A DNA stretch of 64,000 nt from contig NZ_CP011509.1 of NCBI RefSeq assembly GCF_001027285.1, positions 11,308,501-11,372,500 on the forward strand. Direction: 5' to 3'. This document shows positions 4,577 through 14,447 of the stretch, one piece after another; within the stretch, counting starts at the first letter, position 1; every line of letters begins with the position of its first letter. A model generated the notes under the pieces. The model did no database searches and was not told the DNA's origin. It saw nothing but the letters and a program-made list of their open reading frames with translations. Source of the DNA: Archangium gephyra. GTDB taxonomy: Bacteria > Myxococcota > Myxococcia > Myxococcales > Myxococcaceae. The translations under genes were made by a program, and so were the position numbers.

Positions 4577-5602
4577 ATGCTCGTCCTGCGCGATGTCCAG
4601 AAGACCGACCTGCCCGGCCTGAAGCGGCTCGCCGCGGTGCTCAACACCGTCAACCTGCCCAACAACGAGGAGACGCTCGAGGCCATCATCGACAAGTCCG
4701 TGAAGAGCTTCGCGGGCAAGGTGAAGAATCCCTTCGATCGCGAGTACCTCTTCGTCCTGGAGGACGTGCGCAACGAGCTCATCATCGGCACGTCGATGAT
4801 CATCGCGCAGCACGGCACCTACGAGGCGCCGCACACCTACTACGACGTCTCCGAGCGCGAGCACTACTCGGCCACCATCGGCCGGCACTTCCGGCACAAG
4901 GTGCTGTCCATCGGCTACAACTACGAGGGCCCCACGGAGATTGGCGGCCTGGTGGTGGACCCGCCCTACCGCGCCACGCCCGACAAGCCCGGCAAGCAGC
5001 TGTCCTACGTGCGCTTCCTCTTCATGGCCATGCACAAGCGGCTCTTCCGCCCCAAGGTGCTCGCCGAGCTGCTGCCGCCGCTGCTGCCCGACGGGCGCAG
5101 CCTCCTGTGGGAGGCGTGCGGCAAGAAGTTCACCGGCCTCACCTACCACGAGGCGGATCGCCTCAGCCGGCAGAACAAGGAGTTCATCAAGGAGCTCTTC
5201 CCCAACTCGGACATCTACGCGTCGCTCTTCCCCGAGCGCGTGCAGAAGGTGCTCGGCGAGGTGGGGCCCAACACCAAGGGCGTGCAGCGGATGCTCGAGC
5301 GCGTGGGCTTCCGCTACGTGGAGCGAATCGATCCGTTCGACGGCGGTCCGCACTTCGAGGCCAACCTGTCGGACATCACCCTGGTGCGCCGCTACCGCTC
5401 GCTGAAGCTGGCCGAGCAGGACTTCGACATGGAGGGTGATGACGTGCTCGTGTCCTACGAGCGCGAGTCGGGGCGCAACCGCTTCCGCGCGGTGCGCACC
5501 ACGGCGCGGCTGGACGACAAGAACGCCTACCTGCCGGCGAAGGCCAAGGAGCTGCTGGAGGCTCCGGCGGGCGCGAAGCTGTCCGTGATTCCCTTCGACT
5601 GA
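4577..5602 (+). CDS. astA: Arginine N-succinyltransferase
   Basis: First enzyme of the arginine succinyltransferase pathway: succinyl-CoA + L-arginine give N2-succinylarginine, feeding arginine nitrogen and carbon into glutamate and succinate. The 341-residue protein matches the family in length and carries its marks: an N-terminal LRDVQKTDLPGLKRLA, TEIGGLVVDPPYR, LSYVRFLFMA, the LLWEACGKKFTGLTYHEADRLS block and FPNSDIYASLFPERVQ. ATG 4577 is the natural start. No other ast genes adjoin it, so it is either an isolated copy or one that supports arginine use together with genes elsewhere. Confidence 0.92.
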   Translation: MLVLRDVQKTDLPGLKRLAAVLNTVNLPNNEETLEAIIDKSVKSFAGKVKNPFDREYLFVLEDVRNELIIGTSMIIAQHGTYEAPHTYYDVSEREHYSATIGRHFRHKVLSIGYNYEGPTEIGGLVVDPPYRATPDKPGKQLSYVRFLFMAMHKRLFRPKVLAELLPPLLPDGRSLLWEACGKKFTGLTYHEADRLSRQNKEFIKELFPNSDIYASLFPERVQKVLGEVGPNTKGVQRMLERVGFRYVERIDPFDGGPHFEANLSDITLVRRYRSLKLAEQDFDMEGDDVLVSYERESGRNRFRAVRTTARLDDKNAYLPAKAKELLEAPAGAKLSVIPFD

Positions 5603-8107: not shown

Positions 8108-9127
8108 TCAACGCGCCAGGGGCAGTCGCACCACGCGGTACTCGCCGCGCAGCAGCGCCAGCCACCGCTCCCCGGCCTCCACCGAGGGCCCTCCCGGTTC
8201 GGTCACGGCGAGCGGCAGGTGCGTGTCCCGGGTGACGGGGTCCAACGAGGTGGGATCCAGATCCAGCGTGCCGCCTCCGGCGAGCCCCACGCGCACCCAT
8301 GCATGGGGCCGGCCCGGTCCTCCGTCCACGACGAGCAGCCCGTGCACCAGCGCCACCTTGTGTCCCCGCGCCGCCGCCCGCGCCGCGAAGCGCAGCGCAT
8401 GGGCCAGACACCCGCCCGCCTCGCCCTCGCCCCCCTCGCGCCAATCCGCGGCCCCCGGGCCCTTCTCCGGAAAGGCCGCGTGCACCGCCTCCGCGAGCGC
8501 CCGCGCCTCGCCCGCTCGCCAGTCCGTCAACCAGCCCGGCCTCACCACGAGAGGCCAGGAAGGTGAGAAGGCGAGCGGTCCCGACGTGCCCTCCACGGGG
8601 ACTCCTTCCGCGAAGAGCTCCGGTGGCGGCCTCAGCCGTACGCCTGGTGCGACCGCGGTGAAGCGCGACTCGCCCACCTCCAACGCCGCCATCCGCCCGC
8701 GCTCGTCATAGCGTGCGGTGAAGGGCTGGCCGAACATCGTCCCCTCCACCGTGTCGCCCCGCACGGCGGTGATGCAGTGCGGCCCCTCGCGGCCAGACAG
8801 CTCCTCCCGCCCCGTCACACAGCCGGGCGCACGGGGACCGCGCCACAGCCACAGCGCCTGCGGAATGCTCGCGCGCCCCACCACGGTCTCCCCCGGGCCC
8901 ACCTCCAGCGAGGCCTCCCTCACCCGCTCGCCCATGTGCGCGCCCCGGGTGTGCAGGTGGCGCGAGGTATAGGTGAAGCGCTTCATCTCCGGTGTGAGGG
9001 AGAGGGTGACGGTGCCCACGGGCACCCCCTTCCAGGCGAAGACGAAGCGAGCGGCCTCCCCAGGAGGGAGCGGCGAAGCGCCCCCCGCTGGCAGGGCGAG
9101 CAGGAGAGCGGAGACGAGCGGGAGCAC
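8108..9127 (-). CDS. Exported DUF3108-like / transglutaminase-like protein
   Basis: A 339-residue protein with a signal peptide ([18 protein letters not shown]) from a GTG start. The N-terminal part ([20 protein letters not shown], then [12 protein letters not shown]) resembles the lipocalin-like DUF3108 domain. The C-terminal part has an ordered Cys-His-Asp set: [20 protein letters not shown], then [11 protein letters not shown], then [11 protein letters not shown]. That is the arrangement of the papain/transglutaminase-like fold (catalytic Cys about residue 252). Likely periplasmic. Its start lies 67 bp from the divergent chemoreceptor-fusion gene, so both promoters share that short gap. 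An ATG at 9196 is possible but would overlap the neighbour. Confidence 0.75.
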
Positions 9128-9194
9128 CCCCCCAGTCTGCGCCGATTTGAGGATCCCGGCGAGAATGCACGATACGGTGGGACTCCGTTCACCC

Positions 9195-12100
9195 ATGGTC
9201 GCCAAAAAGTACCTCTTCACCTTCATGGTCGTCGGAGGGCTCACGCTCGCCGTTGGCCAGGGCACCCTCCTCAGGCTCTACACCGGCCGCCCCCTGGATT
9301 GGGGCAGCTGGGCCGTGCTGCTGCTGGGCACCCCGCCCCTGCTGCTGCTGGCGAGCTATCTCTTCTGGTACAGGTGGGCCGGCGAGCGCGCCGCGCAGCG
9401 CACCCAGCTGCTCACCCGGCTGGCCGAGGGAGACCTCACCAACAACGCCTACAGCGGTGTGGAGGATCAGCGCGAGGTGCGCCGGCTGCTCTTCTCCCTG
9501 CGCCGCGCGCTCAGCCAGGTGCAGCGGGTGACGAGCAACGTGCGCCGCACCTGCCAGGGCGTGTCCGAGGAGGTCCGGGTGCTGCTGGAGGCCGCGCGCC
9601 GCCAGGGGGGCGCCGTGGAGCGCTCGCAGGAGTCGGTGAACAGCATGGGGCAGAGTCTCCAGGCCGCGGGCAAGCGCGTGGCCCAGCTGGAGAGCTTCGC
9701 CCAGGAGACGAACAGCTCACTGGTGGAGATGACGGAGCGGCTCGGGCAGGTGGCCGAGGCGCTGCTCTCGCTGGACGAGTTCTCGCACCGCACCACGCAG
9801 CAGGTGCAGGCCATGAGCGAGCGGCTGCACCACATCGCCTCCTCCGGTGACGAGCTGGCGCGCTTCGCCAGCGAGGCGGAGGCCTTCGTCCAGGTGGTGC
9901 ACACCGGCATCGACGCCGTGCGCCACCGCGCCTCGGAGACCAACCAGCTGGCCCACGCCGTGACGGCCACCGCCGAGCGCGGTGAGGTGCTCGTCAACGA
10001 CTGCGTGCAGGGCATGTACCGGGTGGAGGAGACGGTGCGCAAGGCCGCCGAGCTGGTGGATTCCCTGGGCGTGCGCTCCACGCAAATCGGCCGCATCGTG
10101 GACGTCATCCAGGAAATCGCGGACCAGACGAACCTGCTGGCGCTCAATGCCGCCATCATCGCCGCCCAGGCCGGTGAGCAGGGCCGGCCCTTCGGCGTGG
10201 TGGCCGATGAAATCCGCAGCCTGGCCGAGCGCACCGCGCGCTCCACGCGGGAGATCGCCACCATGGTGGGCGGCATCCGCCGGGAGGTGGTCACCACGGT
10301 GTCGCTGGTGAAGGAGGGCCGTGAGCAGGCCAGCACGGGCGTGCAGTTGGGAGACCGGGCGGCCGAGGCGCTGATGGAGATCCGTACCATCACCCAGCGC
10401 ACCTTCTCGGCGGTGGAGGCGACGCTGGCCGAGACGAAGCGGCTGGAGGCGCAGGGCTCCACGGTGGTGGACGCCAGCCACCGGGTGGCGCGGCGGGTGG
10501 ACGACGTGACGCGGGCGGCCATGGAGCAGGCGGGGCACGGGCGCGAGCTGGTGCACCAGACGCAGCAGATGGCCAAGCTGGCCCAGGAGGCCTCGCAGAA
10601 GGCCGAGGGCCAGGCGCGCACGGGCCGCGACCTGTCCGGCGCGGTGGTGAGACTGAGCACGGCCATCGAGGAGATCCGCGCGGCGCACAACGTGCTGACG
10701 CGGGGGGACATGTCCATCGGTGAAGAGGTGGCGCGGGTGCGCGAGGACGCGCTCCAGGTCATCCGCATCGGCGACGGGCTGAGCCGCACGGTGGAGCAGC
10801 TGGCGCACGAGGCGGCCAGCCTGGATGGCGAGGTGTTCCGCTTCCGGCTTCCGGCGCCCCACCCGGGCGGCACGGTGCGCGCGGGCATCCACCAGACGGC
10901 CTTCGTCCGGGCCCTGGGCGGGTTGGATCCGCTCTTCGCCGTGGACAACCAGCTGCTGGAGATGAGCTGCTGCGTCTTCGCCAACCTGCTGCGGCTGGAC
11001 GACGGCGTGCTGGTGCCGGAGCTGGCCGAGCGCTGGGAAGCGGACCCCTCGGCGCGCCGCTACCGCTTCTACCTGCGCCAGGGCATCACCTTCCATGACG
11101 GCATGCCCCTGACGGCGCGCGACGTGAAGCGTCACTTCGAGCGGCTGTTGGACCCGGCGGTGAAGTCTCCGGATCGCACCCTGCTGGAGGACGTGGAGGG
11201 CGCCAGGGCCTTCGCGTCGGGCCAGGCGCGCGACGTGACGGGCATCGAGGTGCTGGATGACCAGACGTTGGAGATCCGCCTGGAGGAGCCCAAGGCCTTC
11301 TTCCTGCAGCTGATGGCATTGCCGCGCACGGCGGTGGGCCGGGTGACCGCGAGCGGGCAGGTGGTGGGCACGGGCCCCTACCGGCAGGTGGAGTTCGGGC
11401 AGGAGCGCATCGTGCTCGAGCGCAACCGCACCTACTGGCGCCAGGGGCAGCCGCTGCTGGACCGGCTCGAGTTCCACCTGGTGGACTCGCGCGAGCAGGC
11501 CGTGCTGGCCCTGCAGGAGAACAAGGTGGACCTCGTCTCGCACCTGTTCGCCATGCACGTGGAGTCGCTGGAGCTGGATGGGCAGCAGGTGGTGACCAGC
11601 ACCACGCCGTCCACGTCGTTCCTCGGCTTCAACCTGCGCGAGGCGCCGTACAACGACGTGCGGGTGCGCAAGGCGCTCCGGGCGGGAATGGACATCCAGG
11701 GGCTGGTGGACCGCTTCCACAAGGGAGCGCGCATCGCCCGCACGGTGACGCCGCCGGAGCTGCTGGATGACGAGGGTGTGCTGACCGAGCCAAGGCTGGA
11801 CATCCATCTGGCCGAGCGGCTGCTGCGCGAGGCCGGCATCCGGGTGCTGCCGCTCACGCTCTACTTCGCGAAGGGACGCGACACGACGGCCGAGGACGCC
11901 GTGCTCTTCCGGCCGCTGCTCGAGGCGGGACTGCTGGAGCTCAAGCACGTGGAGCTGCGCGCGGAGGAGTTCGCCGAGCGGCGGCGCGAGGGGCGGCTGC
12001 CCGCCTTCCGGGTGGGGTGGATCGCCGACTTCCCCGACCCGGACAACTTCCTCTACTTCCACCTCAACTCGAAGGCGCAGACCGTCTACTCGATGGGCTA

Positions 12101-12356
12101 CCGCAACGCGGAGTTCGACAGGCTGACGGCGGAGGCGCGCATCACCGTGGACCCGGAGCGGCGCAAGCAGCTCTACCGGCTCGCGGAGAAGATCGCCCAC
12201 GAGGAGTGCCCCGTCATCCCCATCTTCCACCACCGCGTGCACGCGGCGGCGAGCGGGCTGGTGCAGGGGCTGCGGCTGCATCAGGCGCCCCCGCAGGTGC
12301 GCTTCGATGAGCTGTGGCTGGACAAGCAGGAGCAACGGCCGGAGCCGAGGAGCTGA
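9195..12356 (+). CDS. Chemoreceptor (MCP) signalling domain fused to a family-5 extracellular solute-binding domain
   Basis: A 1053-residue fusion. Residues ~5-25 and ~36-56 are two membrane helices joined by a loop of only about 12 residues, so there is almost no periplasmic sensor. A HAMP-like helix pair follows (~57-115), then a long coiled coil with the conserved MCP tip [20 protein letters not shown] (from about residue 307) that binds CheA/CheW. From about residue 557 to the end runs a complete SBP_bac_5 (DppA/OppA-like) domain: [66 protein letters not shown]. With this topology the solute-binding domain should be cytoplasmic. ATG 9195 is chosen because the hydrophobic helix begins immediately after it. 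Confidence 0.88.
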
Positions 12357-12359
12357 GCC

Positions 12360-14447
12360 TCAGGGGCTCGCACGCCGCGAGCCGGAGACGCCGGACGCCT
12401 GGGGCCATCCGCGCGTCTCCGCCGTGAGGAAGGGCTCGAGATTGAATGCCTCGAGCCGCCAGGTGCCCCCGCGCTCGAGGGCGACGTAGACGAAGTGCCC
12501 CGCGTAGGTGGCCCCCACCACGCGGGGAGTCCCGGGCAGCGGGCACATCATCAACCGCTCGCCCCCGGCGAACACCTGGAGGTGGGCCCGCGTGACGCCC
12601 TCGCGCCGCATGCTCGTCACGGTGCTCACCCCACCGCCCTGGACCAACGCGGCCTCATGCAGCACCCCGGGAGCCTTGTCCGGGAAGACGGGCACCTCCC
12701 AGCGGCTCGCGCCTCCCCGCGCGTCGAACGCGCGCAGCAGCACGCCCTCCTCCTCCGGAGCGCAGGCCGTGCCGTCGGTGCGCGGACACGTCCGCGCGAA
12801 GGCGTAACCGGTGTCCTCCAGCAGCAGCACGGGCTCGTCGAGCGGCCGGACACTCGAAGCACCGGCGTCCCACCGCGCCACGCAGGGCAGTCCCCCATCC
12901 ACGCCCACGAAGGCCCGCGTTCCCGCGAAGAGCCAGTCCCCCGCCACGGCCAGCGAGGCCCCCGACTCCGGCACCTCCTCGAGCAGCGGGACGGGCCGGA
13001 AGCCCGTGCCACCGTCTTCGGGTTCGGCGCGCACCAGGGGCCCACGGGCGGCGAAGAGGAACACCTCTCCACGCGAGTCCAGCGCCACCCGGGACGCTTC
13101 CGCGAAGCCCGCCACGGCCCCCTGACGCAACACCCCTCCGTCCGGGGCGAGCACCACGAGCGCCGGGTCTCCCCCGGTCCACGACACGAGCGACACCACG
13201 TTGCCCCCGGGGCCAAGCGCGACGCGCCCCGCGCCCGTGGAGGGACCCCCCGCGCCCGGAGGCGCTTCGAGGCTCGTGAGAGGAACGCGCCACTGGGGAG
13301 CCCCCGTCACCGAGGACGCATAGGACTCGAGCGCTCCCGGCTCGTGCAGCACCACGCCCGCGTCCGAGACGGCGAGCAGCGCGCGCGCCGTGCCCTCCGG
13401 ATAGGGCGTCTCGAAGCGCAGGAAGCCCTCGCTCGTATAGGACACCAACCGGCAGCCCGCATCCCCGCCACACACCGACGCGAAGAGGGACTCCCCCTGC
13501 GCGAGCAGCACCGGACCGCCGGGCGAGAACGAGGGCTCACCGCCGAGCTCCTGGGCGAAGGCCGGCACGAGCTCCGTCACGTCCGGACGCACGCACTCGC
13601 CAGCGCTACAGTGGCCTTCTCCCTGACAGGGCGTGGCGGGCGAGCAGAGGAAGCCCTCGGGGGTGGGAACCTCGCGGCAGGAGCCGGAGAAGCACAGCCG
13701 GGCGGTGACACAATCCACCTTGCCGCAGACGGAGAGGTCGCGGGCATCCACCTCGGTGCAGCCCCGCTCGCGGTCGCACAGGCCCACGCGGCAGGGGTTG
13801 CCCGAGGAAGGACACACCACGGGCGAGGTGATGCACCCCTGCTCCGGTGAACACGCATCCCGGGTACACGGGTTGCCGTCGTCACACGTGCGAGGCGAGC
13901 CCACGCAGGCCCCCGCCTGGCAACGGCCATTCTCCTGGCACCGGCTGCTGGCGATGCACGCCGCGCCGTCCGGAGACTCCGACTCCACGCACACGCCCGG
14001 CTCCAGCTCGAAGCGGGACTGGCGGCACGGCGCCGAGGGCACGCAGGCCAACGGCCGCACGCCCTGTCCGCGCAGGGCCACCTCCACCGAGCGCCCTCCG
14101 GAGGACAGCACCAGCGTGCCCTCCGCCGGACCATTGCCCGCCGGGAAGAGCACCTCCAGGGAGACGGAGCTGGCACCCGGGACGGACACCTCGGTCCCGG
14201 CCAGGGAGAAGGGACCGCCGCGCACCGAAGCGGAGACGGTGACGCTGGCGCGGCCCGTGCCCACCACCGTCACGGTGCGGCGCGCCGTGTCGCCCTCGAG
14301 CACCCGGCCGAAGTCGAGCACCCGCGCCTCCACGTCGAAATCCCCGCGGCTCCCGCCCACCGGCGGCTCGTCACACCGGCACCCGCCAGCGAGCACGAAG
14401 GCCACGAGGAGCAGCAACCAGGGATGGGAGCGGAGCATGACCGCCAC
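12360..14447 (-). CDS. Cys-rich lipoprotein with ASH-like and beta-propeller-like regions
   Basis: A 695-residue exported lipoprotein (LLLLVAFVLAGGCRCD lipobox). After it come an immunoglobulin-like ASH/Hydin-type segment (LDFGRVLEGDTARRTVTVVG, residues ~40-130), a cysteine-rich block (~135-285) with repeats such as RCQENGRCQAGACVGSPRTC and NPCTRDACSPEQGC, and a C-terminal half of beta-propeller-like repeats (GGVLRQGAVAGFAEASRVAL). Function unknown; surface binding is plausible. The GTG at 14447 has GGAG at good spacing; an ATG lies three codons later at 14438. It is last in the minus-strand run from mpg, 71 bp after the DedA gene, and convergent with the MCP fusion. Confidence 0.75.
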   Translation of the reverse strand: MAVMLRSHPWLLLLVAFVLAGGCRCDEPPVGGSRGDFDVEARVLDFGRVLEGDTARRTVTVVGTGRASVTVSASVRGGPFSLAGTEVSVPGASSVSLEVLFPAGNGPAEGTLVLSSGGRSVEVALRGQGVRPLACVPSAPCRQSRFELEPGVCVESESPDGAACIASSRCQENGRCQAGACVGSPRTCDDGNPCTRDACSPEQGCITSPVVCPSSGNPCRVGLCDRERGCTEVDARDLSVCGKVDCVTARLCFSGSCREVPTPEGFLCSPATPCQGEGHCSAGECVRPDVTELVPAFAQELGGEPSFSPGGPVLLAQGESLFASVCGGDAGCRLVSYTSEGFLRFETPYPEGTARALLAVSDAGVVLHEPGALESYASSVTGAPQWRVPLTSLEAPPGAGGPSTGAGRVALGPGGNVVSLVSWTGGDPALVVLAPDGGVLRQGAVAGFAEASRVALDSRGEVFLFAARGPLVRAEPEDGGTGFRPVPLLEEVPESGASLAVAGDWLFAGTRAFVGVDGGLPCVARWDAGASSVRPLDEPVLLLEDTGYAFARTCPRTDGTACAPEEEGVLLRAFDARGGASRWEVPVFPDKAPGVLHEAALVQGGGVSTVTSMRREGVTRAHLQVFAGGERLMMCPLPGTPRVVGATYAGHFVYVALERGGTWRLEAFNLEPFLTAETRGWPQASGVSGSRRASP

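Follow-up and report, generated by a model that had tools for sequence, protein, structure and literature searches.

The gene at positions 9195-12356 of the window (the whole 64,000-nucleotide stretch of Archangium gephyra DNA analyzed here, C1:11308501-11372500 of a genome that consists of a single contig of 12,489,432 bases) encodes a 1053-residue protein of the McpK type that is best explained, and in our estimate probably so, as an orphan membrane-anchored receptor in which a cytoplasmic peptide-type solute-binding protein (SBP) domain is the sensor. Most chemoreceptors detect their signals on the outer side of the membrane, and SBPs of family 5 usually serve import. The finding is real and conserved, and it is partly known from a published receptor catalogue (see below).

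The gene is a single forward-strand frame that starts with ATG at 9195 and ends with a stop codon at 12356 (Table 1). Pfam matches to MCPsignal (residues 251-427, 2e-36) and SBP_bac_5 (residues 606-960, 2e-69) are both far above the cut-offs, and no Pfam match to HAMP or Cache was obtained for this protein; HAMP is likewise absent from the Pfam families found in the 33 aligned members of the family. All these members possess both the MCPsignal and the SBP domain, which excludes a fusion artefact caused by an assembly or frameshift error; the order proposed in the earlier note, with the SBP domain placed after the signalling coiled coil, is confirmed by Pfam and is kept throughout the 33 sequences. 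The genome that includes the window contains 32 MCPsignal and 6 SBP_bac_5 matches, and both domains are encoded together by only two genes, the one described here and a paralogue (C1:3218578-3221733) that is approximately 80% identical to it.

Table 1. Features of the mcpK-like gene and the adjacent divergent gene (positions are those of the window).
Feature	Position	Strand	Residues	Basis
Transglutaminase-like protein gene, divergent from mcpK	8108..9190	-		Pfam Transglut_core3; start codon uncertain
mcpK-like CDS	9195..12356	+	1053 aa	orthologues found in other genomes
TM1	9210..9278	+	~6-28	hydropathy maximum at 7-25, seen in almost every orthologue; model helix 2-30
Short outer loop	9279..9305	+	~29-37	too small to hold a sensor domain
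TM2	9306..9368	+	~38-58	hydropathy maximum at 39-57 with basic residues after it
HAMP-like remnant, motif LAEGDLT	9369..9479	+	59-95	visual likeness to the McpJ-like receptor's HAMP
Long signalling coiled coil	9471..10832	+	93-546	all-helical in the low-pLDDT full-length model; full-length alignment with the McpJ-like receptor
MCPsignal domain	9945..10475	+	251-427	Pfam 2e-36
Receptor tip	10113..10232	+	307-346	I322 and Q325 at the positions of Tsr E385 and R388
Linker	10833..10868	+	547-558	non-helical gap in the model; matches the C-terminus of the McpJ-like receptor
SBP family 5 domain, predicted cytoplasmic	10869..12332	+	559-1046 (start ~557)	Pfam 2e-69, model, Z scores
D945 codon	12027..12029	+	945	amino-group anchor; counterpart of OppA D419 and DppA D408 in the alignment

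No permease or importer gene was matched in the vicinity of mcpK, and two other SBP genes of the same genome do adjoin permease genes, so that a role of the McpK-type SBP domain in ABC transport is unlikely. The transglutaminase-like gene, the start of which lies near or overlaps that of mcpK, is adjacent to mcpK in most Myxococcaceae loci but is not found beside the paralogue; a similar-looking gene is divergent from the mcpK orthologue of G163. Downstream, a convergent gene (12360-14447, minus strand) encodes a lipoprotein-like product with a match to the Dicty_CTDC repeat and is also located downstream in many relatives. Elsewhere in the window, an AstA-type arginine N-succinyltransferase is encoded at 4577-5602 on the plus strand (Pfam, 1e-100).

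Hydropathy analysis delineates two membrane segments (residues 7-25 and 39-57) and none of comparable strength elsewhere in the protein, and the full-length model contains helices at residues 2-30 and 36-77, separated by a short turn, with no further membrane element. Of the two helices and the loop of about 12 residues described in the earlier note, the helices were borne out by hydropathy and the loop turned out to be nearer 10 residues; given a loop of this size, the claim that the protein has no periplasmic sensor is supported. Averaged over 32 orthologues, the positive and negative charges number +1.84/-0.16 N-terminal to TM1, +0.50/-0.78 within the loop and +4.59/-1.38 C-terminal to TM2; this bias points to an N-in/C-in orientation, under which the SBP domain should be cytoplasmic, as the earlier note had predicted. 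Together with the need of an MCP tip for cytoplasmic partners, the charge bias argues strongly for this location, and the C-terminus would be inside even if TM1 were a cleaved signal peptide because TM2 would remain. No second signal peptide or separate secretion signal was found ahead of the SBP domain in the window protein; almost all of its nearest SBP relatives elsewhere carry N-terminal signal or lipoprotein sequences. For the M. xanthus orthologue, three TM helices predicted by TMHMM are tabulated (PMC3945109, Table 1). The third of these is likely to be a false positive: the candidates for the additional segment, the third-strongest hydrophobic stretches of the sequences analyzed here, belong either to the receptor hairpin (residues ~308-326 and ~354-372) or to an SBP helix that is buried (~580-608), and the latter helix belongs to the confidently modelled SBP fold. 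Thus, hydropathy and charge bias indicate neither a third membrane segment before residue 557 nor a periplasmic C-terminus.

The AlphaFold model of residues 551-1053, built from an alignment with 65 relatives, has a pLDDT of 94.5. When this model was compared with known structures using Foldseek and VIA-align, OppA, DppA, GbpA and similar proteins were the nearest folds, with Z scores of up to 38.5 over approximately 465 residues (36-38.5 against solved peptide-type SBPs, including 36.7 for OppA, 1ola, and 37.2 for DppA, 1dpp). The cluster-C (SBP family 5) fold is complete in the model, and the DppA/OppA-like fold that had been suggested for this region was accordingly recovered as a whole.

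To derive residue equivalences, OppA and DppA of E. coli were aligned with the domain. D945 aligns with OppA D419 and DppA D408, the amino-group anchor, and is an aspartate in 32 of the 33 members and an asparagine in one, so the loss of conserved ligand-binding residues, which the earlier note had considered as contrary evidence, is not observed. W942, which is invariant, and R939, which is nearly so, align with OppA W416 and R413, respectively. The OppA and DppA residues compared here contact the peptide. The title of PDB entry 8z1z, which names DppA R383D+D436R (precursor numbering), fits this role. DppA R355, the anchor of the dipeptide carboxylate, falls in an alignment gap, with a nearly invariant arginine (R895) close by; given the lack of an unambiguous counterpart, the ligand may be something else than a free dipeptide. 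Between orthologues, dN/dS of the SBP domain is below 1 (0.31-0.43), and 54 of its positions are invariant; evolution is slower in the coil than in the SBP and TM regions, the CheA/CheW-interaction region of the coil being under strong constraint (dN/dS approximately 0.1).

Over residues 75-552, the coil can be aligned with a receptor of the same genome encoded by a 771-aa frame, which we denote McpJ-like; this name, like DifA-like and FrzCD-like below, was given on the basis of size, context and CheW/CheA neighbours rather than by comparison with a named reference. The C-terminus of the McpJ-like receptor falls at the start of the SBP linker and, given that the C-terminal arm of the coil ends where this receptor ends, the SBP domain appears to be an addition to a receptor C-terminus. 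The two proteins (L048/L038 for the McpJ-like receptor) share the tip, the coil length and the closest position in the tree of signalling regions; unlike McpK, the McpJ-like receptor has an N-terminal extracytoplasmic region, a Pfam HAMP domain and methylation-like motifs, and lacks a C-terminal SBP domain. Its gene is in an orphan locus (G000:C1:10673500-10677500) beside transporter-like and deacetylase-like frames.

At the tip, I322 (33 of 33 members) and Q325 (32 of 33) replace Tsr E385 and R388, and among the receptors of the window's genome this combination is limited to the McpK type and the McpJ-like receptor. The departure lowers the claim that canonical mixed trimers are formed, not the likeness to MCPs. 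The McpK orthologue at L180 (G153) differs from the rest of the family in that the conserved tip glutamate is replaced by valine (AAQAGVQG). No methylation consensus site is conserved across the 33 members, the best one (residue 492) being present in 10 of the 33 under an approximate consensus; given this and the difference of the tip at two trimer-contact positions, ordinary MCP behaviour should not be assumed. The coil beyond the tip comprises approximately 232 residues in McpK, 235 in the McpJ-like, 167 in the DifA-like and 152 in the FrzCD-like receptor. In a tree of the signalling region built from 170 columns and few genomes, McpK joins the McpJ-like receptor with 93/93 support and groups with neither the FrzCD-like nor the DifA-like receptor, which weakens the Frz-type option within the Che/Frz-type pathway proposed in the earlier note; the published assignment (Moine 2014) is to the Dif system. 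Our best guess is that the output pathway is the module used by McpJ-like receptors. The full-length model (mean pLDDT 72, pTM 0.55) is poor in the coil, where the alignment is shallow, and was not relied on in this region.

The distribution of the fusion was analyzed in 195 genomes of the phylum, 96 of which belong to the family of the window's genome. The SBP domain with the preceding coil was detected in 89 of the 96 Myxococcaceae genomes, in a few of them as fragments only, and outside the family in G035, G042 and G163, with a contig-end fragment in G164; the same domain order, for which the earlier note had proposed a search, is thus found in other genomes. Among the matches listed, no coil-to-SBP junction was found in any other of the 195 genomes. 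Judging from these sequences, the fusion is old within the class and apparently confined to it. Two single SBP matches in related genomes (L042 and L043) were considered as fusions and rejected as ordinary lipoprotein-type SBPs. Among the best 80 loci of a wider contig search, the receptor fusion was found only in L078, with a fragment in L079, and viral contigs yielded only distant, partial relatives.

In genus g1, the paralogues allow the evolution of the two parts to be compared. Within a genome, the paralogues are 91-99% identical in nucleotide sequence across residues 96-550 (G000, G001 and G003; for G004 the comparison covers residues 331-550 only) and 78-85% identical across the SBP domain. 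Between genomes, the coils of orthologues are approximately 88-94% identical, usually less than those of paralogues from the same genome, and the SBP domains of the a-copies are 85-92% alike, which makes them closer to each other than to the b-copy of their own genome. Accordingly, in nucleotide trees constructed with FastTree, the coil groups the g1 sequences by genome (support 1.0 in G000, G001 and G003, and 0.70 in G004), and the SBP domain groups the b-copies together (support 1.0) and apart from the a-copies. Grouping of the coil by genome and of the SBP domain by copy implies gene conversion limited to the coil. This pattern would suit a division in which the SBP domain determines specificity and the coil provides a common output; gene conversion may, however, merely track stretches that were already similar and need not reflect a division of labour. 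In the pocket, the paralogues differ at positions 709, 1013 and 941; these differences are no more than suggestive, being too few for a test.

McpK (MXAN_6456) of M. xanthus is listed as an orphan receptor of 1048 aa with an MCP domain at residues 246-463 and a solute-binding domain (Moine 2014, PMC3945109). The window protein matches it in length (~1050 aa), domain order (MCP followed by a C-terminal SBP domain) and orphan locus, although we equated McpK/MXAN_6456 with the window orthologue by these published features and not by a sequence under that name. The domain combination is therefore already catalogued and is not new. In the same study, McpK was placed with DifA in the Dif system by length class 44H (a coil of 44 heptads), and the mcp genes were deleted systematically; in the accessible text, mcpK is not among the mutants named as defect-free, and no phenotype of its own was found (PMC3945109). 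As published, McpK has three TM helices and belongs to class 44H and the Dif system, whereas the protein described here has two TM helices, a longer coil and an McpJ-like grouping. In the accessible text of Moine 2014, no mention was found of a cytoplasmic sensor or its conservation, of the unusual tip or of the paralogue pattern. The tip, the lack of conserved methylation sites and the paralogue pattern are new here. No statement on a ligand of McpK or on a cytoplasm-facing sensor was found in the searchable papers, and the Pfam names of the two domains, searched for together in open-access papers, gave no match, which is not proof of absence.

Compared with OppA and DppA, the McpK SBP domain has the whole fold and the amino-group anchor (D945) in common, but it lacks a signal peptide and an adjacent permease, is attached to a receptor and predicted to be cytoplasmic, and does not clearly retain DppA R355. 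Cytoplasmic use of such a domain has precedent: in E. coli SgrR, a family-5 SBP domain is part of a cytoplasmic regulator (for the SgrR type, a weak NCBIfam match was obtained), and two Anaerolineae proteins (L121:2640-6527 and L131:703-4608) carry a C-terminal SBP_bac_5 domain after AAA_16, one with a BTAD and one with a guanylate-cyclase domain, and likely represent further, independent cytoplasmic uses. These proteins share with McpK a family-5 SBP domain in a cytoplasmic regulator; their outputs are DNA binding or an activator ATPase or cyclase, they lack a chemoreceptor coil and they are not membrane-anchored.

Under the explanation that we consider probable, the two short membrane helices would serve only as an anchor, and the signalling hairpin would enter the cytoplasm up to the CheA/CheW-binding tip and return to its membrane-proximal end, where the OppA/DppA-type Venus-flytrap at the C-terminus would be placed. 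The flytrap would close on a ligand present in the cytoplasm, most likely a peptide or some other compound that bears a free amino group, and closure would shift the helix bundle, starting at the membrane-proximal end, and so change the kinase output. A different use of the same location, namely that the cytoplasmic SBP domain is a protein-protein docking domain (for example, for a peptide importer, contacted on its inner face, or for another cytoplasmic protein) that reports on its partner with no free ligand, appears unlikely. Such docking would agree with the carboxylate anchor of DppA not being clearly kept and, if the hairpin geometry is correct, with the SBP domain staying close to the membrane; it is difficult to reconcile with the retention of the amino-group anchor and of W942/R939 in nearly every member, and no importer gene is next to mcpK. 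Given that family-5 SBPs are usually extracytoplasmic and that three TM helices are predicted by TMHMM for the M. xanthus protein, an inverted (N-out/C-out) receptor or an exported SBP domain might also be considered, with a periplasmic SBP domain and a coil that is no conventional signalling domain. We regard this as very improbable because the charge bias over the 32 orthologues is strongly C-in, the constraint on the CheA/CheW-interaction region makes sense only in the cytoplasm, and there is no conserved cysteine pair in the SBP domain.

No more credence can be given to a vestigial SBP domain that has kept its fold but lost its sensing role: the faster evolution of the SBP and TM regions would be expected of such a passenger, but the domain is retained in nearly all of the 96 family genomes and in three outside, its invariant positions and binding-site residues are conserved, and so, separately, are the two copies. 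The alternative that concerns the output only, and is compatible with the cytoplasmic-sensor explanation, is signalling via Dif (exopolysaccharide control) rather than with McpJ-like receptors, as in the published assignment (Moine 2014, PMC3945109). It seems rather doubtful, though a good deal less so than an inverted or vestigial SBP domain, given that the signalling domain groups with the McpJ-like and not the DifA-like receptor in the tree mentioned above (170 columns, few genomes), that the length of the coil beyond the tip is also that of the McpJ-like type, and that I322/Q325 are common to McpK and the McpJ-like but not the DifA-like receptor.

On the explanation of McpK as a receptor with a cytoplasmic SBP sensor, the signal would enter the hairpin through its C-terminal end, and social, predatory bacteria could link their motility or development to peptides inside the cell. 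A more specific and tentative reading, to which we give slightly less than even weight, is that one lineage of chemoreceptors converted a periplasmic peptide-binding flytrap into a cytoplasmic sensor on the returning end of the hairpin, that through it the array monitors pools of peptides within the cell, such as those from prey digestion or protein turnover, instead of the surroundings, and that in g1 a second specificity arose by duplication, with a common output maintained by conversion. The arrangement is kept across the whole family, including the genetically tractable M. xanthus, so that these predictions are directly testable there.
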